64,000 nucleotides of DNA from Ctena decussata. Taxonomy: Eukaryota > Mollusca > Bivalvia > Lucinida > Lucinidae. Each line of letters opens with the position of its first letter. Positions within the stretch are counted from its first letter, which is position 1. The stretch spans positions 53,623,454-53,687,453 of the forward strand of contig OZ022502.1 of assembly GCA_963989385.1 (NCBI GenBank). Direction: 5' to 3'. Made by a program: the position numbers and the translations under genes. The notes beneath the pieces were generated by a model. That model ran no database searches. It had not been told where the DNA came from and worked only from the letters and a program-made list of their open reading frames with translations. Shown piece by piece: positions 14,162-25,403 of this stretch.

Positions 14162-14169
14162 ATTTAAAT
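14162..14169. other. Left 8-bp target-site duplication, ATTTAAAT
   Basis: ATTTAAAT abuts the left end of the P-type element. The identical octamer lies at 24608-24615 directly after the right end. The octamer is itself palindromic, so the exact edge rests on the inverted repeats, which start cleanly at CACAGG. Confidence 0.85.
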
Positions 14170-14515
14170 CACAGGAGCCTGGTTGGCTGTATTTGCATCT
14201 GACAACACGATTTCCCCACCCACAACAGTTTTTATGTAATATCCTATAGAAGTCTTGTTTCTAATGGAATAAGCAGGTCTCCAAACTTTTCTTTACCTTT
14301 ACACATTGAATGAATACATAAACTGTTGATCTACCACGAAGATCAATTCTAAATGCTATTCATTTATATATAAACAAATCTACCATTCGCTAGAAAAAAC
14401 AAAAGGAGAGACGGCGGCCATGTCTTTCGCAACGGAATGTCGCTTGCGTGCGTAATAAATTTTGCTGGTTCCCGATATCACCACAAAGCGCTTGAAGAAT
14501 CAAGCACCAGGGGTC
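14170..14515 (+). repeat. Left terminal inverted repeat of the P-type element
   Basis: This arm matches the reverse complement of 24265-24607. The outermost 28 bases differ at only two positions; similarity then continues with small indels through 14370, becomes perfect over 14371-14469, and fades after about 14515. The terminal ~30 bp is close to the length of classical P-element terminal repeats; the longer internal similarity is unusual. Confidence 0.85.
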
Positions 14516-15380
14516 CATAGATGCACCAAAACACCGGAACGCACCTGTAATTATCAGATAGGGGTTTTCTTTAATTGTGTGTGGTTTTAGGCCTGGAATA
14601 TTATTGTATGTCATTATAGAGAGGATAACAAATTAGGATTTCAATTTGATTTTACAGAAAAAAAGTTTACTGGTAATAATGTTTTCCTGTTCAGGAATAG
14701 AGACAGAGAGTGTATGGCGGGGGGGGGGGGGGGGGGGTTGGGGGGATTTCCACGGACCCAAATAAAATCACTGAACTTGGACGTTTCGGTCACTTTTAGG
14801 GAGGAGATAACTATCACAACCTTACATTTCTTAAAAGTGAAAGTGAAACTACACTTTATAAATTAAAAGTTGTTATATCGTTTTTGAGTCCATTTTGCCA
14901 TTTTATTGTCTGAAGATACAATATCTATGTACTTAGTCATATACATTTCATTGCTTACTATACACATATAGTGTCTATTCCTACCCGAATTTGTAAGTGC
15001 ATATTTTTCTGGACTGGGACATGCATGATGTATTGGTGTTTTTATCTTTATATTGTTTTATTGGGAGTGGGGTGGAGGTGATGCGTATGTAGCTTGTCGA
15101 ATACGCTACCTTTGGAGATACATAACAAGCGAGTACCCCTCCTCCAACACCAGCACCAACATAAGAACACCTGTCCAAGGCGCTAGTAAATAAGTGCACC
15201 GATCTGTCCTATTTGAATGTTCTAAAGTTCAGCACTGCAGGTTTCTTTCTCATAGCTGACATAATCCTGAGAGGAAAACAAACTCCAATGACTCAGCCCT
15301 GTGGACTTCAACAGTTTCATCAGGTTAAACACGTCCGTGTGATTCATACCCCAGTACTACACACTTTTATATAGTAAAAT
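14516..15380. other. Non-coding interior of the P-type element, left side, with poly-G tract
   Basis: No credible ORF. A G-run with few interruptions lies at about 14719-14747, enough guanines to form a quadruplex. The rest is AT-rich and presumably holds the promoter and first non-coding exon of the helicase transcript; nothing specific can be pointed to. Confidence 0.45.
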
Positions 15381-15616
15381 GAGCTGCGACACGACAAAAC
15401 CAACAATGTGGTTGTGCGCCCTGCGCAGACTCAGATCAGCATGGGCATCCGCCCAGTCTGATCAGAGTCTTCGCTGTCCGCATGGAGGTAGCTTAGACAT
15501 TTAGCTACCCTTTGAGCACTTAACGAAGAGTCTAGTCAGTCTGAGCGGATGCTCAGACTGATCTGCGTCTGCGCTGGGCACACGACCACATTGTTGGTTT
15601 TGTCGTGTCGCGGCTC
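15381..15616. mobile_element. Palindromic MITE family P1, copy inside the P-type element
   Basis: Starts GAGCTGCGACACGACA and ends TGTCGTGTCGCGGCTC. The whole ~236 bp is one interrupted palindrome with GATCAG/CTGATC-rich arms. Same family as 12266-12500, 27325-27515, 37393-37628, 42228-42465, 57731-57848 and 61666-61900. AAAT flanks both sides, a possible short target duplication. Confidence 0.8.
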
Positions 15617-15682
15617 AAATGTGTGTTTTAGGGGTATACAATTTTCCTTATACTTGCTCGTAAACATAGATCGTGGGCAATC

Positions 15683-15717
15683 GTTAGAACCGCCTCAATG
15701 ATCGAGGCGGTTCTAAC
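15683..15717. repeat. Perfect 14-bp hairpin, GC-rich
   Basis: GTTAGAACCGCCTC, a 7-base loop, then its exact reverse complement. It lies just outside the large palindrome that precedes the helicase gene. Confidence 0.75.
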
Positions 15718-15723
15718 TTGAAG

Positions 15724-16116
15724 GCATCAAAGAGTACAACATAAAATGGTATTAGTGGTCATTCTCTTCGAAATTTTGAAATTATTATTTTTTGCTTTGT
15801 TGGTGCTACATTTGACCTAGTGCACGATGTGGAGGCTATATTTGACCTTCCTGAACTGCTAACAACATCTGGAAATCTTTTCTGAAATATGAGTGATGCC
15901 TATGAAACTACAATTTGCAGTTTCACGGGCATCACTCATATTTCAGAAAACATTTTCAGATGCTGTTAGCAGTTAACATAGGCCATGTATAGCCTTCACA
16001 TCGTGCACTGGGTCAAATGTAGCAGCAACAAAGCAAACAATAATAATTTAAAAGAAAATCGAAAAAAAAAAACCTGACCACTCAAACCATCCTACGTTGT
16101 ACCCCTTGCTTTGAGC
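15724..16116. repeat. ~390-bp near-complete palindrome upstream of the helicase
   Basis: Two arms of about 190 bp are imperfect reverse complements meeting with almost no spacer near 15913. Examples of paired segments are GCTTTGTTG / CAACAAAGC and CTGAAATATGAGTGATG / CATCACTCATATTTCAG. It ends about 125 bp before the helicase splice acceptor. It may be a separate foldback MITE or a structural part of the P-type element. Confidence 0.75.
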
Positions 16117-16271
16117 AAAATAAGAAAAATACAGCAGCATCAAAGCAAAAACTAATGATTTCAAAAAGTCAAAAAAATTCAATTCTTTTCCAATAATAAA
16201 TGCAGGAAAATTAGCAATCTGATCAAAATCTTTTCTCTTCAGGGCATATGAACTGAATCACCATAGAAAAG

Positions 16272-18305
16272 ATGGATGCTGATCAAATAGCTGCATGGAA
16301 TGCAATCATGAATGGACATAATCTTGTCCTGACAGGACAGGCAGGCACGGGGAAAACATTCACTATTAAACATTGTGTAAACGAACTTAGAAAAACTGGT
16401 AAAAATGTTGCCCTTACATGCTATACCGGAATAGCATGCTTGCAGTATGAGGGTCTAAAACCAATGACACTTCATAAGTTCGCCGGATTGGAGGATGGAC
16501 GTCATCCAGATAATAAACTTTTACACCTTTTGCAAACAGATGAACGATTTGGGGATGTTAAGAAACGTATAATTGAAACAGATGTCTTAATAATAGATGA
16601 AGTGTCCATGGTCAGTAGGAAAATTCTGGAAAGTACTGAATTCTTGTGTAGGAATTTAAGAGGGGGCACTTACTGTTTTGGTGGATTGCAGGTTATATTG
16701 TGTGGTGACTTCTATCAACTCCCCCCAATTCAGGATAAGCAGTATGGGGATGATGGTAGTTACTGTATGAAGTCCCATTTCTTTGAGGGGATGTTTCCCC
16801 ATGTGATACATTTTCAGACAGTGCATAGACAGAGGGAAGAAAAACTTATAAAATGTGTCTCTGAGCTTGAAAAAGGAAAGCCCAGTAAAGAGACAAACGA
16901 GTTTTTTTCAACATTAAGCAGGCCATTAACCGTTGAAAATGAGTCCGAAGTTGTAAAGTTATTTGCAAGGAATGAAGATGTTGACTTGTACAATTATCAA
17001 AAATCAATGGCCATGGAAGGTGAATTGAAGGTATTTGAATCTGAAGATAAAGGTGATGATAAATTTCTAAGGAAAGTACTAGCTCCAAAACGGTTGGGAT
17101 TAAAAGTAAATGCCCCAGTAATGCTGCTCAGGAATTTAAATGAACGCCATGTAAATGGTCTAAGGGGGAAAGTTGCAAGAATCAATGATGCCTCTATTGA
17201 CGTGAATTTTAAAGTTCATGGAAAATCAGAAGTTGTAAGAATTGAAAGATTTTGCTTTTCTAAGTATGACCCAGCTACAAATAAGTGCATAGCGAGCAGG
17301 ACACAGTTTCCCCTGAAACTGGCATTTGGGATGACGATACATAAGGCGCAAGGAATGTCAATAGAATTCGTCGAAGTAAACTGTAAGAAGGCAACATTTC
17401 CTGGTCAAGTGGGAGTAGCTGTCGGTCGAGCCCAAACATCAGGGGGCTTACGTGTACTAAACTATAGCCAGTATCTATTGAAAGAGCACCCAAAAGATGT
17501 GAGAGATTTTTATGAAAATTATAATCCCAATGTAACGTATGAAAATGATCGGAGTTGCTGTGGAAACCACGAGTGCTTTCAAAATGAAAACTTACACATA
17601 GTAGTAGATGAAATTGATTCTGACTCAGAAATTGATGAATTAATTGATAATGTTGAACAAATGGAAAACAAATCAGATCATAGTTACACAATGAATATTG
17701 CAGTTGACACGTCTCCTATCAGGACCATTTTACAAAGTGCTTTCAATGATTTTAAGGATACTCCTTCAGAAGCAACGGCACGCAATGCCCTAGATGTGAT
17801 ATTAAGTAAACCTAATAATGTCTCAGCATGGTATGTTAAACAATGTTCTGCTATGGAAAACATATATGATAATTGCTGCTCCGTTCAAGCAGGTAACCTT
17901 AAACAAAAACATCTTACTGATTTTTACACGATGTTTCAGCAGTACATGGTATCAGAAGAATACTCACAAAGTATCAAATCTGTGTCTGAGGTAGAGTTTT
18001 CGAGCCACTTGTTTTCATCAGTCATGTTTTTAATCCAAGAGAAAATTCTAAAGGATAAAGCAGCAACAGTAGAAATAACAGAACAACCAGTGCTGTCAGT
18101 ATTTCCTTCACCAGATTCCACCATATCTGCACCAGGAAAAGGAAAAATTCGATATGTGGGAGGCTACTGTGTTGCCAAAGTCCGATATAGGCTCTGCAAG
18201 TCTATGCGAAACTGTTTCTATGTTCCTGGAATGACTCCTGAAATAAACAAAATTCAAGAGCAAATCAATATACTAGATGATATGACAATATCAGCTGCAG
18301 ATTAG
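16272..18305 (+). CDS. PIF1-family DNA helicase, transposon passenger gene
   Basis: A 677-residue protein with all superfamily 1B helicase motifs. Walker A is GQAGTGKT (about residues 22-29), the DEAD-like box is IIDEVSM (107-113), motif III is GDFYQLPP (145-152), a VHRQ motif follows near 184-187, TIHKAQG lies at 355-361 and VGRAQT at 384-389. Such enzymes unwind DNA 5' to 3' in the nucleus. There is no Rep/HUH nuclease upstream, so it is not a Helitron protein. Residues ~410-677 form an unrecognised extension ending in a conserved-looking VGGYCVAKV segment. The ATG is the first after an in-frame TGA; a good splice acceptor (pyrimidine tract then CAG, 16231-16242) lies just upstream, so a 5' non-coding exon is likely. 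It sits 80 bp before the PHD gene on the same strand and converges on the transposase gene. The helicase core looks undamaged. Confidence 0.88.
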   Translation: MDADQIAAWNAIMNGHNLVLTGQAGTGKTFTIKHCVNELRKTGKNVALTCYTGIACLQYEGLKPMTLHKFAGLEDGRHPDNKLLHLLQTDERFGDVKKRIIETDVLIIDEVSMVSRKILESTEFLCRNLRGGTYCFGGLQVILCGDFYQLPPIQDKQYGDDGSYCMKSHFFEGMFPHVIHFQTVHRQREEKLIKCVSELEKGKPSKETNEFFSTLSRPLTVENESEVVKLFARNEDVDLYNYQKSMAMEGELKVFESEDKGDDKFLRKVLAPKRLGLKVNAPVMLLRNLNERHVNGLRGKVARINDASIDVNFKVHGKSEVVRIERFCFSKYDPATNKCIASRTQFPLKLAFGMTIHKAQGMSIEFVEVNCKKATFPGQVGVAVGRAQTSGGLRVLNYSQYLLKEHPKDVRDFYENYNPNVTYENDRSCCGNHECFQNENLHIVVDEIDSDSEIDELIDNVEQMENKSDHSYTMNIAVDTSPIRTILQSAFNDFKDTPSEATARNALDVILSKPNNVSAWYVKQCSAMENIYDNCCSVQAGNLKQKHLTDFYTMFQQYMVSEEYSQSIKSVSEVEFSSHLFSSVMFLIQEKILKDKAATVEITEQPVLSVFPSPDSTISAPGKGKIRYVGGYCVAKVRYRLCKSMRNCFYVPGMTPEINKIQEQINILDDMTISAAD

Positions 18306-18385
18306 CCGAAACTACGTAGTCTGGCCCATGTTCCTACTTCTGTATGTATTCTCTGCTCTTGAAGGAACTTCTTTAGATTTTAATT

Positions 18386-19615
18386 ATGGCAAACACTATA
18401 TATGAAGAAACCCTAGACGAAACAACCAGGAAACAAAATACAGCAGAAGGCCTTACAAATATTTGTGACGATGTTTTCGAATATTTCGAAATGGTTGAAC
18501 AAATTATAAGAACACTTTTGACAATTAAAACACTCTCTGAGAATAGAAAGCACTTATATAAGTTCGCTCTGCAACAACTGCTGTCGAATGAAACTTTATT
18601 TCAGGCGTTTTCTAGCAAATGCTGTAATAAGAGTTTTTCTGAATCCACTGTAGAGTCTGGATTACATGATCGTGTACTGTTTGAAAAGCTAATGCGTCTT
18701 TTTTTATCAGTATCTGTGGCGCAATTCAGAAAAGATTATCTAAGAGCACTGAAAAGAGAAAAAAGCAAAGCTTTAAGGAAAAGGGTTCTTGATAAAAGTG
18801 TTAAGAAAGAAATAAGTGGACCCATTGATGTGAAATTTATAGAAAAGGATAGTTCAGACAAAAAAGGTGTTTCCCATTTGAAACTTAAGGCATTAGCCCT
18901 TCAGTCAAATACATTTTTCACAGATTTCAAGAAACAGGATATTGTTCGACTCCTTCACGCATATGGAGAAACTGCTTCTGCAAGATCCACAAAGAAAGTT
19001 TTGGGAGAGAATCTAATTCATATATTGAGAGACGATGCATGTATAAAGATGGTTAATCCTGAAAGCCTGAGTCCTGCTATACCAATACAGTCAGCAATTA
19101 CTGAAACGCCAGATATACCAACAGATAGACCAGCTGAGGTCGTACGAATAAGAGCTGAAATCTATGAGCCAGTAGCTTCAACTTCAGGTTCAGTTGAAGT
19201 TGTTGAAGAAGTTGTTTCAATAGCTGAAATCTATGAGCCAGTAGCTTCAACTTCAGGTTCAGTTGAAGTTGTTGAAGAAGTCGTTTCTGAAGAAACGATA
19301 CCCCAGCCTGCAAAAAAGATTCGAGTTACAGAAGCAAGAGGAAAAGGCAAAGGGAAGGGGAAAGGAAAAGGCAAAGGAAAGGGAAAAGGCAAAGGAAAAG
19401 GAAAAGGTAAAAGAAGCGTAAAGGAAGTAGAGGAAGTAGATAATACCGAAGAAGGGTGCGGTATTTGCATGAAATTGTACTTAGAAAATGAAGAATGGAT
19501 TTGCTGTGATGCCTGCTCAATTTGGTATCATAGAAATTATGTTAGTTTGAATGACGATGAATGGGCTTATCAACAAAATGAAGAGGCAGTGTATATATGT
19601 CCAATGTGCGTCTAG
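18386..19615 (+). CDS. PHD-finger protein with Lys-Gly tract, transposon passenger gene
   Basis: A 409-residue protein. Residues 1-250 are charged and mostly helical in character with no family I can name. A 69-bp exact-looking tandem duplication (19154-19222, 19223-19289) encodes a repeated acidic 23-residue unit, followed by a strongly basic (Gly-Lys)n tract at about 19335-19412, likely to bind nucleic acid. The C-terminus is a PHD zinc finger: CGIC, CDAC, WYH, then CPMC. The cysteine expected three residues after the histidine (HxxC) is a tyrosine here (HRNY), one base away from Cys, so zinc binding may be impaired. PHD fingers normally read histone H3 tails. The ORF begins 80 bp after the helicase stop in another frame, and a TTTAG acceptor-like site lies just before its ATG. 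The two could be one gene split by an intron or by mutation, or two genes. Confidence 0.75.
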   Translation: MANTIYEETLDETTRKQNTAEGLTNICDDVFEYFEMVEQIIRTLLTIKTLSENRKHLYKFALQQLLSNETLFQAFSSKCCNKSFSESTVESGLHDRVLFEKLMRLFLSVSVAQFRKDYLRALKREKSKALRKRVLDKSVKKEISGPIDVKFIEKDSSDKKGVSHLKLKALALQSNTFFTDFKKQDIVRLLHAYGETASARSTKKVLGENLIHILRDDACIKMVNPESLSPAIPIQSAITETPDIPTDRPAEVVRIRAEIYEPVASTSGSVEVVEEVVSIAEIYEPVASTSGSVEVVEEVVSEETIPQPAKKIRVTEARGKGKGKGKGKGKGKGKGKGKGKGKRSVKEVEEVDNTEEGCGICMKLYLENEEWICCDACSIWYHRNYVSLNDDEWAYQQNEEAVYICPMCV

Positions 19616-19862
19616 ACCTTCATTCCAAATATACACTTGGCCTTTGTTGTCGGTGATAACAAACTAATGACAAATCACACAGTTCGGACAAATTGATCTT
19701 TGAATACAGAAATGAGGTAGTTATCATCAGGTGCACACCAAATTGTCTCAATTACCTGTGCCTTAAAATAGTATGAGAGAAAACTGATTAAAATTATTTG
19801 ATTGTGTAATATTTACCTGTTGCATGATAAACACCTTGCCGGGTGGCATGGCAACTTGGCCT
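19616..19862. other. Intergenic spacer between convergent passenger and transposase genes
   Basis: 247 bp separating the stop codons of the PHD gene (plus) and transposase (minus). AT-rich, presumably holding both 3' ends; I see no clear AATAAA in either direction. Confidence 0.5.
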
Positions 19863-21866
19863 TTAATTCACGGAGGACGATGATCTATTTTGGACCTGGG
19901 ATATCCCGAGAGGTTGACGTTGGAATATAGAGGCTCCACTCCCACCTGCATTGCTCTTCCTTGAAATTGTCGTCTGGCCAAGAATGATGGAATTGACGCT
20001 TCGGCTAAAGGTAAGATAGTTCGGGTTTGTATTTGCCCCGTTATGTAATCCTCTTTGTTGGGAAAAGAGATTTTCAATCGCATCACTATTGATCCGCGCA
20101 GGTGTGATTGAACCAAATGACCTTTTGAATTTTGAACAACAGAGCTCATCAAAGCCTATAAGTAATGAAGCAATGTCTTCTCTTGTTTGGAATGATATTA
20201 GTGCTTTTTCTTTATTTTGGGCTTCACCGCTGTTAACATCGTTTTCCCAATTTCTGAACCAATTCAGGACGTTTCTGATCTCAGTGAGTCGTGTGTCATT
20301 ATCACTATGAATGGGTCTGTGATCCCTGAATACTTTCACAAGCACTGAGGTGTGTTCCAGAAATTCTATTGTACTGTTTAACTCAATACCTTGTTCACCA
20401 AGATGCGTTTTGTAGCATTTCATTAGGTGCAGCATGTTTTCACTAAGAACATCCTCAGCGAGTTTATTCCTCATCTTTAACTGTGAATTCAGGAAGAAAT
20501 GATCATTTGTTAGACAAGGAAATACATTCAGAGTGTTTGCAGTTGTGTCCCATATATACGCTTTGTACCAATGTTCCCATATTATATGGTGTCCCTTGAA
20601 AAGCAACTGCTTCCTGTGCACCGGCTTAAATCCACTTTTTGAGACATTATTGCGAATTTTTTTCATCACATGAGAATAATTCATAATGATACAAATACTG
20701 GGCGAATAAGGGTCAAATATGTTATTGAATGTCATCGTTGTCATGGTATCAGATTTTTTGGCATCCTGTGGTAGGAACATTTTCATAAAGTCACGATTGG
20801 CTTGAGCTCCATCTAGACTCACATAGGTCACTTTAAAACCAAATATGCCGAGCATCTTAACACATTTCCAAAACATGAGATATAGCTCAGAAGGACTGGC
20901 TGAATCGGTTGCGAAGTGTGCCACAGGAAACCTAAATCCTGTTTGTCCCAGGAAAAGAATTTGTAAAGCATGTGAAGCTAATTTGGGCTCATGTTTACCC
21001 ATCAGAGCATTCATGTATACAGACTCTGTGCAACTTTCCACGAATCCAATCAACTCGAACGCATCTCCTTTCTTTTTCATCTGTAAATCGTCCTGAATTG
21101 TCATCTCATCAATCAACAAACCACCTTCATAACCTTCTTCTGGCAAATTTATTTTTTCCGCTTCTATTTTCATCCACTGAAGTACTTCTTTTTTTACACC
21201 TGCCTCCTGATCAACTCGATTTTTTACACGCTGTATCTGTCTTACAGATGGAAGGGTTAGAAAGCCGCTTTTAGTCAAGTCTTGGTAGCCTCTGGGGGAC
21301 CTGCAGTACAATGTCAAACAAAGCCGGATGATTTCGGGACTCCATCGACGACTGTGCGGACTTGCATTTAAAGTCTTTAGTTGAGACTGGAAGAGACTAG
21401 CTGTTTTTTCAGGTAATGATTGTAATATTGATGACATGTCTTTGTGATCATTTTCACACAGGTTTATACCGGAGTCAGTTAGTTTGTCCTTTGAATTAGG
21501 TACACACTCAATATGTTGGGGTTCTATTGCAGCTTTATTTAATGGATAAGGCTTGTCACTTGATGCTTCAACAACTGTATCATTAATTCTAATGTCTTGA
21601 TGAATATTTAGATCAGTTTCTTTTTGTTTCCATTGTAATCCTAAGTACAATTTCGTCAGAGTCTCCCAGTGTTCCTTACTTCGAACAGATTTGATCAACG
21701 TTCCTTTGAAAACGTGCTTTATGGCACGGCCTATCTCCTTGCCAGAAAATTGTCCTTTGAGTTTTTTCTGGACTTCAGTTAGATACACGCCACCATTTTC
21801 AGATTGAACAATATTTTGGCCCAACCTGGAAGAACAATTTATACTACTGATCAATAAATGTTGCAT
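19863..21866 (-). CDS. P-element-superfamily transposase with RFX-like N-terminal domain
   Basis: A 667-residue protein. It has the RNase H-like core of P-element/THAP9-type transposases: LIDEM (candidate catalytic D253), LDGAQANRDF (D352) and, near the C-terminus, RINSDAIENLFSQQRG (E598, with D595), which is the family's hallmark distal block. Between them lies the long insertion that binds GTP in P transposase; its usual D-x-PH sequence is MNYSH here, a possible loss. Residues ~20-82 (GGVYLTEVQKKL ... YLGLQW) resemble an RFX-type winged helix; no THAP zinc motif is present in this ORF. An in-frame TAA lies 18 bases before the ATG, and an acceptor-like TTCTTCCAG at about codon 11-14 leaves room for an upstream exon. 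It faces the helicase/PHD genes tail to tail. It should cut and paste the element by acting on the inverted repeats. No internal stop is seen. Confidence 0.85.
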   Translation of the reverse strand: MQHLLISSINCSSRLGQNIVQSENGGVYLTEVQKKLKGQFSGKEIGRAIKHVFKGTLIKSVRSKEHWETLTKLYLGLQWKQKETDLNIHQDIRINDTVVEASSDKPYPLNKAAIEPQHIECVPNSKDKLTDSGINLCENDHKDMSSILQSLPEKTASLFQSQLKTLNASPHSRRWSPEIIRLCLTLYCRSPRGYQDLTKSGFLTLPSVRQIQRVKNRVDQEAGVKKEVLQWMKIEAEKINLPEEGYEGGLLIDEMTIQDDLQMKKKGDAFELIGFVESCTESVYMNALMGKHEPKLASHALQILFLGQTGFRFPVAHFATDSASPSELYLMFWKCVKMLGIFGFKVTYVSLDGAQANRDFMKMFLPQDAKKSDTMTTMTFNNIFDPYSPSICIIMNYSHVMKKIRNNVSKSGFKPVHRKQLLFKGHHIIWEHWYKAYIWDTTANTLNVFPCLTNDHFFLNSQLKMRNKLAEDVLSENMLHLMKCYKTHLGEQGIELNSTIEFLEHTSVLVKVFRDHRPIHSDNDTRLTEIRNVLNWFRNWENDVNSGEAQNKEKALISFQTREDIASLLIGFDELCCSKFKRSFGSITPARINSDAIENLFSQQRGLHNGANTNPNYLTFSRSVNSIILGQTTISRKSNAGGSGASIFQRQPLGISQVQNRSSSSVN

Positions 21867-22099
21867 GTGGAACCCGGGAGGAGGTTACACTGAATATTTC
21901 TGGCTTCATATGCTCAGCACCAGCAGCATCTTAGCAAGCCAAGGGTTCTAAATGCACTTCGTGCCTTACGCGTGGACTTAGTACCCTTGGCATACGAAGA
22001 TGCCTCAGCATGAACTGTTTACTAAAAATATCTGTTCCGACATGTTACCTTAAAAACAGATATTTTCAACATTTCAGCATATACTACTAAATATATTAA
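21867..22099. other. Upstream flank of the transposase ORF, with stem-loops
   Basis: Presumed 5' region of the minus-strand transposase gene. It holds a perfect 12-bp stem (22025-22036 with 22055-22066, AAAATATCTGTT) and a shorter CCAAGGGT / ACCCTTGG pair (about 21940-21990). No promoter motif is recognisable. Confidence 0.45.
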
Positions 22100-22250
22100 T
22101 CTAGTGTAGCAAACCCATGTGACAATACAAAAATTTTCGGCTATGGTGTTGGAGTGCGCCAAGGTGAAACCTTGTCATCAATACTATTTCATATATTTCT
22201 GAAAGATCTTAATGACTTTTTATCATATTCCTTTAATCGTTTAACACATG
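22100..22250 (+). pseudogene. LINE reverse transcriptase fragment A
   Basis: Translates as ...FGYGVGVRQGET.SSILFHIFLKDLNDFL, the motif-B block (VRQG) and following helix of a LINE reverse transcriptase of the GVRQGE type. This differs from the GVxQGS type of fragment B directly downstream, so two elements are joined here. Only about 50 codons survive. Confidence 0.7.
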
Positions 22251-22276
22251 TTACCAATAATTCACTCGGACACTGC

Positions 22277-22448
22277 GCCGCTGATTCAAGAAGGGCAGTT
22301 GTGAGTTACTGGCGAAAGTATGTGCACTTAGTACTGGTTAACCGCTTAGGAGGTCTAAGCCTGTCCAGGAATAGTGTGGTTAGGTTAACTGACCGTCCCG
22401 ACATGACCATAGTTGTTTACCGTGGACGTTAAACAACAAATCAACCAA
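22277..22448 (+). mobile_element. 5'-truncated tRNA-type SINE (family S1) inserted in a LINE fragment
   Basis: Homologous to the tRNA-headed SINEs at 56070-56356 and 56549-56822 (shared segments GGAATAGTGTGGTTAGG and GTCCCGACAT), but lacking the tRNA head. Flanked by a perfect 10-bp target duplication CGGACACTGC at 22267-22276 and 22449-22458, proving insertion into pre-existing LINE sequence. Confidence 0.85.
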
Positions 22449-23115
22449 CGGACACTGCAGCTATAACTTGTGGTGTCCTTCAAGGCAGTATTCTAGGGCC
22501 CTTGTTATTTTTATGTTATGTGAATGACATGGTGATAAGTTTTGATCCGGACCGTAAACTTTTGTTATATGCTGATGATAGCACAATCCTGTTTTCACAT
22601 AAAAATCCAGATCAGATAGCACACAAACTAGGGAAAGTTCTTGAATCTTGTTCTGACTGGCTAGTTGACAATAAACTGTTATTGCACCTTGGTAAAACAG
22701 AATGTATACTATTTGGGTCAAAAAGCAAACTGACGAAAGTTAAAGACTTCAAGGTTACATATAATGGTCACATGATTGAACATACAACATCTGTAAAATC
22801 TCCTGTCGGGGAAATTGGTTGTTAACAACAATTTGTCCAGAGTAAATGCTCGTCTAAAGTTTATGTACAGACATAAAACGAGTCCATCCTTAAGAGCAAG
22901 AAAAAACTTATGTTCAGCCCTGATTTTGTGTCATTTTGATTATACTTGTTCTTCATGGTATGCAGGCCTCACCAAAGGTCTTAATAAAAAACTACAAATT
23001 GCTCAAAATAAAGTCATAAGATTTATTAATTCTCTTGGACCCAGAACAAGCATAACTTCTTATATTTTGTCAGAGCTGAATCTGTTTAATGTTGAAACCC
23101 GGGTAATCTTAGTTT
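22449..23115 (+). pseudogene. LINE reverse transcriptase fragment B (jockey/CR1-like), frameshifted
   Basis: Begins in motif B (GVLQGSILGPLLFL), continues through motif C (LLYADDSTILF) and the thumb region (WLVDNKLLLHLGKTECILFG). A frameshift near 22810 moves the rest (SRVNARLKFMYR ... SSWYAGLTKGLN ... LGPRTS) into another frame, which fades out near 23115. It lacks the endonuclease and most of the polymerase; a dead 5'-truncated copy. It lies inside the P-type element and was presumably inserted into it. Confidence 0.85.
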
Positions 23116-23431
23116 CAGAGGTATTTTGGTCAGGTATTGGCTTCAACCCAATTATATTATTAATTATATTCATTTTATTCATTTTCATCATAGAATAGAT
23201 CTTATATGAGATGTGATATAAAGGATATGTGTATTAGTAGACAACAAGATATGTTCGATAATGTATTTATTGCACATACTTATTCGTCTGATTTTCAAGA
23301 GAGAGAGAGAGAGAGAGAGACTTGGGTGATTGCATACTATGGTGTCAATTTTGGCACTTCGTTGCAGATACCACTCATTCGTAAGCTTCAATATAGATGT
23401 TTCCTGGTGCCAATAAACATCGTTGCGCAGC

Positions 23432-23496
<65 letters not shown>

Positions 23497-24264
23497 TCAC
23501 AGCCCCTGTATGCTCGGAGCCCGATTTGTGTGTGTGGGGGGGGGGTCCCCACCTTGCCTTGATTTACCAGGGTATTGGCTTTTGAAATAGTAAATCTTTA
23601 TCAGACCCACCCTGGTGGTCTGAAGTTGGACCCCATCTAAGATTTTTTTCTGGATCCGCGTGGGGACCCAGCTCCAGATCAGGGTATTTCCAGCTTCAGG
23701 CAAGGGGAGTCCGACAAATATTACCATTACAAAAACCCATTTCCTGGACAATCGAGGGGGTCAGGACACCCTTTCCCCACTCCCACTGGATCCCTGCTTC
23801 CGAAAAGGTGGGAACATTCACAAATTCAAATTGTGGTATAATTCAGTACATGTGGCTATGTGATAAGAACCAGATTCGTAGGGGTCTTTCATACTCCTGG
23901 TTAACTCCTGGTTACTAGCCATCTCGACCCCAGGCACAGGCAGTCATTTTGGCAAAACCACTGTCTTTCAAGCCCCGTTTCTGTCTTCTTTTCTCTACAT
24001 CTTTCCTTCTCCCTCTCACTCCAATTCTTTCTAAGGGGTCTCGCCCCCTGTCTACTAGGGGTCCAAATACGAGAGAGACCCTGTGCCCGAACGAAGCAAA
24101 ATACATGAAATGATGTTAAGCAGTATACACACAAAGTACTATTCTTTGTAACATAATCGCACCATTTATATAAATTGATCCCCGAAGACATCGTTTCAAC
24201 CCCCTAGTTTCAACTCTGGTGTGTAGTGGCGAGTCGTAGAAATTGAAATTTGAATTCAGCGCGC
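23116..24264. other. Non-coding right interior of the P-type element with GA microsatellites
   Basis: (GA)n tracts at about 23298-23320 and 23435-23495 (the second interrupted). A T-G-rich stretch with a G-run follows at 23529-23545. No reliable coding sequence except the speculative exon at 24081-24191. Confidence 0.5.
24081..24191 (-). CDS. Possible upstream exon just inside the right inverted repeat (speculative)
   Basis: A short open stretch on the minus strand starting at an ATG at 24191, about 75 bp inside the right terminal repeat, with a Cys-rich start (WCDY ... CVYC). Its position, upstream of the transposase and next to the repeat, is where a promoter-proximal first exon of a P-type transposase would lie. 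A GT at about 24099-24100 could be a donor, but it is weak. No homology is recognised, so this is only a candidate. Confidence 0.2.
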
Positions 24265-24607
24265 CGTTGGAAGTTACTGGTGTTTAAATTTTCAAGCGCT
24301 GCATTGTGACATCGGGTACCAGCAAAATTTATTACGCACGCAAGCGACATTCCGTTGCGAAAGACATGGCCGCCGTCTCTCCTTTTGTTTTTTCTAGCGA
24401 ATGGTAGATTTGTTTATTTTAATATTTATTGTTTTCAGAAGTTATTTTTGTGATAGATCAACAGTTTATGTATTAGTTCATCGCACAAAGGTAAAAAGAA
24501 GTTTGGAAAGTAGCAGATTGAGAAAAAAATAAGACTTCTATTGGATGTATATAGGATTTGTGGTGGGTGGGGAAATATATGCAAACACAGTCAACCAGGC
24601 TCCTGTG
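24265..24607 (-). repeat. Right terminal inverted repeat of the P-type element
   Basis: Reverse complement of the left arm, ending in CCTGTG at 24607, directly before the ATTTAAAT target duplication. It contains the 99-bp block (24318-24416) identical to 14371-14469. The block is CpG-rich and includes the sequence GGCGGCCATG, which resembles a YY1-type site; that resemblance is only suggestive. Confidence 0.85.
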
Positions 24608-24615
24608 ATTTAAAT
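24608..24615. other. Right 8-bp target-site duplication, ATTTAAAT
   Basis: Second copy of the octamer found at 14162-14169. Sequence beyond it (24616-24705) continues the host repeat that was interrupted at 14161, as judged against the uninterrupted relative near 39010-39110. Confidence 0.85.
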
Positions 24616-24705: not shown

Positions 24706-25185
24706 TTCTAAAAGCCGGTACTTGGCCGTACTTTAATAGCCAATCTCCAAATATTACGAGGAAAGTAGCCAATCTACAGAGATTTCTTTCTTTCAGAGAA
24801 ATATATCCTTGAAGAGAACTGGGAAATAGAATCTGTATATTCAACAGAAATTCTTGTATTTCTTCGCTAAGAATGTTGCCATTCACTGTCTTACTCCTTG
24901 TGTTGTTACTTCATATTACTATTTCCCGGTTGGTGTCGTCGGCGGGATGTGGAATTTGTCTCATTTCATAATCATTGCCATTTTACACAACACAAGGGCA
25001 TACATGTAGCTACCTATACTGCAAATACGCAGGTGCGTGTTGAAAGTTTGTCAAAATTGATAAAATTTCAAAATGCACCTGCACATTTACATGCTGATTT
25101 TTTTTTATAAATTAGACAAAGTTTCAATACCAACTACCAAAGTGGCCGATATACTACATTTTCCTTCAAGGATTAAAGTTTAAAA
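24706..25185. other. No recognisable feature
   Basis: Unique-looking AT-rich DNA. Confidence 0.45.
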
Positions 25186-25189
25186 GATG

Positions 25190-25403
25190 ATTGTGCGTAG
25201 CATAAATGATTGCTCCTAGTGACGCCCCTGCCGGGTAAAGATCAAAACGTGAGTGTGCATAACATGAAAGTGCTCCTAGTTATGCCCCTGCCGAGTAAAG
25301 TTTAAAACATTATTGTGCGAAACATGAAATTGCTCCTAGTTACGCCCCTGCCGAGTAAAGTTTAAAACATTCTTGTGCGTAACATGAGATTGCCCCTAGT
25401 TAG
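25190..25403. repeat. ~66-bp minisatellite, just over three units
   Basis: TTGCTCCTAGTTACGCCCCTGC-type unit recurs at about 25210, 25271, 25331 and (partial) 25391, each with CCGAGTAAAGTTTAAAACAT after it. Confidence 0.85.

Follow-up and report, generated by a model that had tools for sequence, protein, structure and literature searches.

A P-related transposon lineage with a PIF1-PHD gene in the bivalve Ctena decussata

The P element is the textbook one-protein transposon, with a size of about 3 kb. Helitrons encode a PIF1-type helicase, and RAG1/RAG2 relatives combine a DDE transposase with a PHD-containing partner, the PHD being that of RAG2. Gain of P element copies depends on host repair (accessible part of PMC7776569). 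Galileo, a Drosophila member of the P superfamily, has a P-type transposase with a THAP domain, long inverted repeats, and mostly 7-bp duplications (accessible part of PMC4168063). KolobokH and other Kolobok lineages are cut-and-paste transposons with an accessory RecQ helicase, which also occurs beside other accessory enzymes (accessible part of PMC9587614). Here, a 64,000-nucleotide stretch of the 1.66-Gb genome of Ctena decussata (C5:53623454-53687453), called the window, was analyzed. Between inverted repeats at 14170-24607 it holds a P-related element of 10,438 bp with three reading frames, each delimited from stop to stop, for a PIF1 helicase (plus strand), a PHD protein (plus strand), and a transposase (minus strand). 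The element is best explained as a member of a P-related cut-and-paste lineage whose full-length elements probably carry two oppositely oriented genes, one for a P-type transposase and one for a fused PIF1-PHD protein with a presumed accessory role.

Mobile ends in two families

The arms of the window element match at 93% over the outer 29 bp (95% complementarity over 37 nt including the duplication) and at 82% over the inner ~270-302 nt. The original prediction of inverted ends inside an 8-bp target-site duplication holds at these borders. Copies were searched for in the same genome, where the left 400 bp of the element as query found 47 places, the later, weak ones covering a short piece only. 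Among six short relatives with two arms or one, four have perfect 8-bp duplications (GTCGAACT, GGTCATAT, TGTCAGAC, and ATTGCATT), a fifth has a duplication with one base different (AATAGTAT/AATGGTAT, 7/8), and the sixth is without a second end. A long copy at C2:60182083-60196763 (14,681 bp) is flanked on both sides by GTTTGCTG and holds homologues of the transposase, helicase, and PHD, with stops. The copy on C3 (35.9 Mb) holds the transposase, the PHD, and the final part of the helicase. The ends of the window family are mobile ends, and the window element is more than a chance find because further genomic places show its ends next to different 8-bp duplications.

A second family carries the same gene combination. 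The element at C1:66450574-66463808 (13,235 bp) has 419-bp inverted ends that are 99.8% identical, start with CATAGGGGCCCGG, and are bordered by the duplication ACTTAGTT; the copy at C11:16439873-16453386 has GCAAGAGC on each side, and perfect duplications were found in two of the three full-length copies examined. The C1 transposase is a 796-aa frame with 44% identity to the window transposase. The C1 helicase exons are 41% (307 columns) and 58% (38 columns) identical to the window helicase, and the window PHD protein with its finger is matched by an exon of 550 aa (26% and 24%). In the C1 element the transposase sits on the opposite strand, with the helicase exons to one side of it and the PHD exon to the other. 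At C11:39317193-39327792 both second-family ends enclose a helicase match, with no transposase match among the matches listed. Movement of the family with 419-bp ends was likely recent because its copies are 98-99% identical and those ends are nearly perfect. As predicted, the transposase, helicase, and PHD lie between the same ends as one mobile unit, and the genome contains additional copies that share these ends and genes and have 8-bp duplications, such as the C2 copy; the C1 family carries diverged versions of all three between ends of its own. In the two families with determined ends, neither the helicase-PHD part nor the transposase was seen, among the copies compared, to have termini of its own; such termini had been named in advance as a refutation.

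A near-identical pair at C6:8.2 Mb and C11:66.27 Mb also carries all three parts, the homology spanning 8206824-8224551 on C6. An outer match at C6 8205663 was considered as an element end and rejected as a tRNA-like repeat, as judged by eye. The C6 element (L045) contains short direct-repeat arrays at 8213.5-8215.1 kb and 8214.9-8215.7 kb, in the interval that separates its transposase from its helicase-PHD gene, and these make up most of its length difference from the C11 copy.

A PIF1-PHD gene and a P-type transposase

The window helicase has the motifs GQAGTGKT (16335), IIDEVSM (16590), GDFYQLPP, TIHKAQGMS (17334), and VAVGRAQTS (17415). Both the PIF1 core (1.7e-26; 93.6 bits, cut-off 25.9) and the Pif1 2B domain (2.9e-07; 30.5 bits, cut-off 23.9) exceed the curated Pfam cut-offs, which by sequence places the protein in the PIF1 family. 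Its nearest solved structures are cellular Pif1 (yeast Pif1 chains, E 1e-54), with Helraiser far lower. This ranking bears on the idea that a second transposon, perhaps a Helitron-related one, inserted into a P element and makes up the helicase-PHD part. A PIF1 helicase is a Helitron hallmark and the window element does contain nested repeats, but no Rep domain appeared among the Pfam matches of the frames scanned, the same gene combination is enclosed by two sets of ends that are unrelated and have independent duplications, and the 14 weak helicase loci (28-32%, picked by eye) all fall among loci unlinked to a transposase. Nesting is therefore highly improbable. A Helitron identity for the element itself was rejected, since no Rep (HUH) family was found in those frames and inverted ends and a duplication are present.

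The helicase and PHD frames of the window are halves of one gene. An 80-bp insertion that does not start with GT separates them; the helicase sequence of the C2 and C3 copies continues directly into the PHD half. An intact fusion of 1,082 aa is found at C13:65767585-65770830, the C6 relative is uninterrupted for 919 aa without counting its first exon, and two proteins from other records, P0100 (881 aa) and P0101 (876 aa), exceed the Pfam cut-offs for both PIF1 and PHD. Because the C2 and C3 copies lack the 80-bp stretch and the fusion is intact elsewhere, the helicase and PHD are read as normally one protein. The two passenger genes of the original prediction are thereby replaced by a single ancestral PIF1-PHD gene that diverged with the transposase.

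The PHD match in the window frame (5.3e-05, 23.6 bits) is slightly below the curated cut-off of 24; those of the relatives P0001, P0004, P0100, and P0101 exceed it. One zinc-ligand cysteine of the window finger is a tyrosine (HRNY), so the full C4HC3 ligand set is not present in this copy. The C2 and C3 copies have HRNC, and the cysteine is retained in the C13, C6, C9, and C14 relatives. Profile and fold matches of the finger include PHF12, DIDO1, Pygopus, and BPTF, several of which were solved with methylated H3 tails. The fold matches have weak E-values of 0.04 and above, and a fold search with the whole PHD half gave none at E 0.001 or below, its matches covering the PHD part and not the helical middle. 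Reading of H3K4 methylation by the finger of the window lineage is inferred because these matches are histone-reading PHD fingers at fold E-values of at least 0.04. Residues ~186-218 of the PHD protein (window 18932-19030) resemble by eye the helix pair of a SAP-type DNA-binding motif, which Pfam did not detect.

Among structural matches of the modelled transposase, the Drosophila P transposase ranks first by a wide margin, with RAG as a weaker fold match. A solved-structure search with the single sequence found no match; the same search with a transposase profile led to the P transposase. The protein is assigned to the P type on its predicted RNase H fold, inserted domain, and putative DDE residues. 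The GTP-binding insertion domain (PF21788) scored 20.2 bits against a cut-off of 24.8, and the predicted region aligns structurally with 6p5a. The THAP-type transposase that was expected did not materialize: Pfam found a THAP domain in 0 of 16 transposases scanned, some of whose frames start downstream (for example L036), and no C2CH motif with THAP spacing occurs in the six frames of two elements; a spliced exon may still carry one. A winged-helix-like domain occupies the THAP position. The lineage is filed as P-related rather than as a THAP-bearing P element because THAP was not found. The nearest named relatives of the transposase are bivalve proteins, from Mercenaria (64% and 62%), Pinctada, Ruditapes, Mytilus, and Pecten. 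Another relative, P0062, comes from a 7.3-kb contig in an assembly labelled as a Sedimenticola metagenome, and is probably host DNA from a clam symbiont sample.

The window copy is a decayed member of the P-related lineage because its fused gene is split, a PHD zinc ligand is lost, and insertions including a retrotransposon piece are nested in it (Table 1). Its description as complete stands for the two ends and the duplication and fails for the contents, which are not intact. The reverse-transcriptase remnant and the two palindromic insertions are additions to the original prediction. The C3 copy also holds sequence aligning with most of the reverse-transcriptase remnant. Directly outside the window element lies a tandem array of ~60-bp units (25171-25402).

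Table 1. Coordinates of the element and its parts in the window
Feature	Positions	Strand	Remarks
Left 8-bp target-site duplication	14162-14169		ATTTAAAT; identical to 24608-24615
Left terminal inverted repeat	14170-14510	+	Starts CACAGGAGCCTGG; recurs in same genome
Nested palindromic repeat	15380-15617		Arms 94 nt, 86%; abundant in rest of window and many P-type loci compared
Nested palindromic repeat	15775-16053		Arms 139 nt, 87%
PIF1 helicase half of fused gene	16257-18305	+	682 aa stop to stop; first Met codon 16272
80-bp insertion	18303-18382		Adds a stop and a frame shift, splitting the PIF1-PHD gene; absent from C2:60.18 and C3:35.9 copies
PHD half of fused gene	18377-19615	+	Helical region, basic GKGKGK stretch, C-terminal PHD finger 19457-19612
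P-type transposase	19863-21884	-	673 aa stop to stop
Putative catalytic residues	21108-21110, 20811-20813, 20073-20075	-	D259, D358, E604
RNase H N-terminal part of transposase	20778-21206	-	Pfam TNP-like RNase H N-terminal, 1.4e-13
Winged-helix-like N-terminus of transposase	about 21642-21872	-	
Nested reverse-transcriptase remnant	22433-23198	+	Pfam PF00078, 2.2e-11; frames broken; not among the element's own genes
Right terminal inverted repeat	24277-24607	-	Pairs with left arm
Right 8-bp target-site duplication	24608-24615		ATTTAAAT

Linkage and co-divergence of the two genes

The matches listed form 50 transposase, 58 helicase, and 25 PHD loci, and loci within 25 kb were counted as linked; the omitted rows, 11 among 80 for the helicase and 19 among 47 for the PHD, were second pieces of places already counted. 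Among these loci, 31 of the 50 transposases have a helicase within 25 kb, 17 have a PHD, and 32 have either. Chance predicts 0.09 transposase-helicase links, and 2000 shuffles gave a mean of 0.10 and a maximum of 3. Of the 31 linked pairs, 30 have their two genes in opposite orientation (21 convergent, 9 divergent) and one has both on the same strand. Protein distances of transposase and helicase correlate at r = 0.88 for 20 of the 31 linked loci (184 of 190 distances), and at r = 0.68 when the loci are collapsed to 15 lineages, a value reached in 0 of 5000 permutations. An unrooted tree built from 16 linked helicases and 6 unlinked ones divides the two groups with a support of 1.000, and the P-linked helicases retain their motifs at about 40% identity. 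Because it diverged together with the transposase, the PIF1-PHD gene appears, on these sequence comparisons, to be a conserved, integral component of the element and not a pair of passengers.

Several observations weigh against this interpretation. Among the matches listed, 18 of the 50 transposase loci have neither a helicase nor a PHD match within 25 kb, and 27 of the 58 helicase loci have no transposase nearby. The order of parts varies among lineages, as in the C1 element with its PHD exon beyond the transposase and in the nine divergent pairs. Nonsynonymous/synonymous ratios of the window against the C2 and C3 copies are 0.40-0.44 for the transposase, 0.62 and 1.54 for the helicase, and 0.48 and 0.81 for the PHD; because of the latter values no clear selection on the accessory gene is seen within the window family. 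The ends are also imperfect in places: the final ~30 bp of the right repeat of the C2 copy are replaced, the C3 copy breaks off within the helicase with one end seen, C16:52340264-52353580 has second-family ends and no duplication, and the shared outer boundaries of the C6/C11 pair yielded neither inverted ends nor a duplication. Linkage is seen in one genome only, the relatives from other records being proteins alone, because scans of other contigs confirmed no relative: viral contigs gave no match to the single transposase and 42 pattern matches to transposase alignment A1, of which 0 were confirmed, and bacterial and archaeal genome contigs gave 54, again with 0 confirmed.

The unaccompanied transposases and the weak selection signal would suit a host or foreign gene that was captured as a passenger, perhaps several times, and has no role in transposition, as would the short derivatives, which are mobile without PIF1-PHD. 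Such a capture does not readily account for co-divergence over 15 lineages, the near-constant opposite strands, the separation of the P-linked helicases from the unlinked ones, or the retained motifs, and we consider it improbable.

Proposed mechanism and comparison with known systems

In the mechanism proposed for an integral PIF1-PHD gene, the transposase would bind the ends through its N-terminal winged-helix-like domain in place of THAP, pair and cut them by the (GTP-dependent) P mechanism, and insert the element with an 8-bp stagger. The PIF1-PHD protein would act as an accessory factor, its PHD finger tethering the complex to active chromatin by way of histone H3 tails and its helicase unwinding DNA at the cut donor or the insertion site. 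Unwinding may lead to copy gain by aiding the repair of gaps or the restart of replication. A tentative possibility is a long-lived lineage with its own replication-type motor, in which the PHD guides the transposition complex to chromatin that is H3K4-methylated, replicating, or active and PIF1 links excision or insertion with replication or the repair of breaks, the element gaining copies by itself; the coupling of transposition to replication or chromatin raised by the original prediction thus stands as something we infer. The matched PHD fingers are histone H3 readers, and the helicase-PHD gene is separate from the transposase on the other strand, features that would also fit a regulator or anti-silencing factor that reads or alters chromatin over the copies instead of helping to cut and join. 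A PIF1 motor with its motifs present would suit work on DNA better, and a regulator is rather unlikely.

No P-type transposon with PIF1 or PHD was found described in the open literature, with subscription papers, preprints, and Repbase outside the scope. We class the element in an apparently new lineage related to P, which has a conserved accessory gene for PIF1-PHD and in which no THAP was detected; a repeat-database entry is possible. The closest system is the Drosophila P element, with THAP9 and the zebrafish relatives, whose transposase the modelled protein matches. The window lineage differs from Drosophila P in its winged-helix-like N-terminus where no THAP was detected, its long inverted ends, its extra PIF1-PHD gene, and its size of 10-15 kb against about 3 kb. 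It resembles RAG1/RAG2 in joining a DDE transposase to a PHD partner gene, but RAG2 is without a helicase and the RAG transposase is of another family. Unlike Helitrons, the window element has inverted ends, a target duplication, and a DDE transposase. The long inverted repeats are shared with Galileo, from which the lineage differs by its 8-bp duplications and the lack of a detected THAP; a helicase or PHD is unmentioned for Galileo in the accessible part of PMC4168063. Kolobok elements share the accessory helicase in a cut-and-paste transposon but belong to another transposase superfamily and have RecQ instead of PIF1 and no PHD; PIF1 and PHD occur 0 times in the accessible text of PMC9587614.

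With a conserved PIF1-PHD partner, the lineage would be a natural system in which to test if a DNA transposon can supply its own repair or replication coupling and chromatin targeting, and the likely recent movement of the family with 419-bp ends makes laboratory tests realistic. The window lineage also uncouples the catalytic core of P from THAP. If the proposal is true, a nominal cut-and-paste element would gain copies by its own means, unlike P elements, which rely on host repair.
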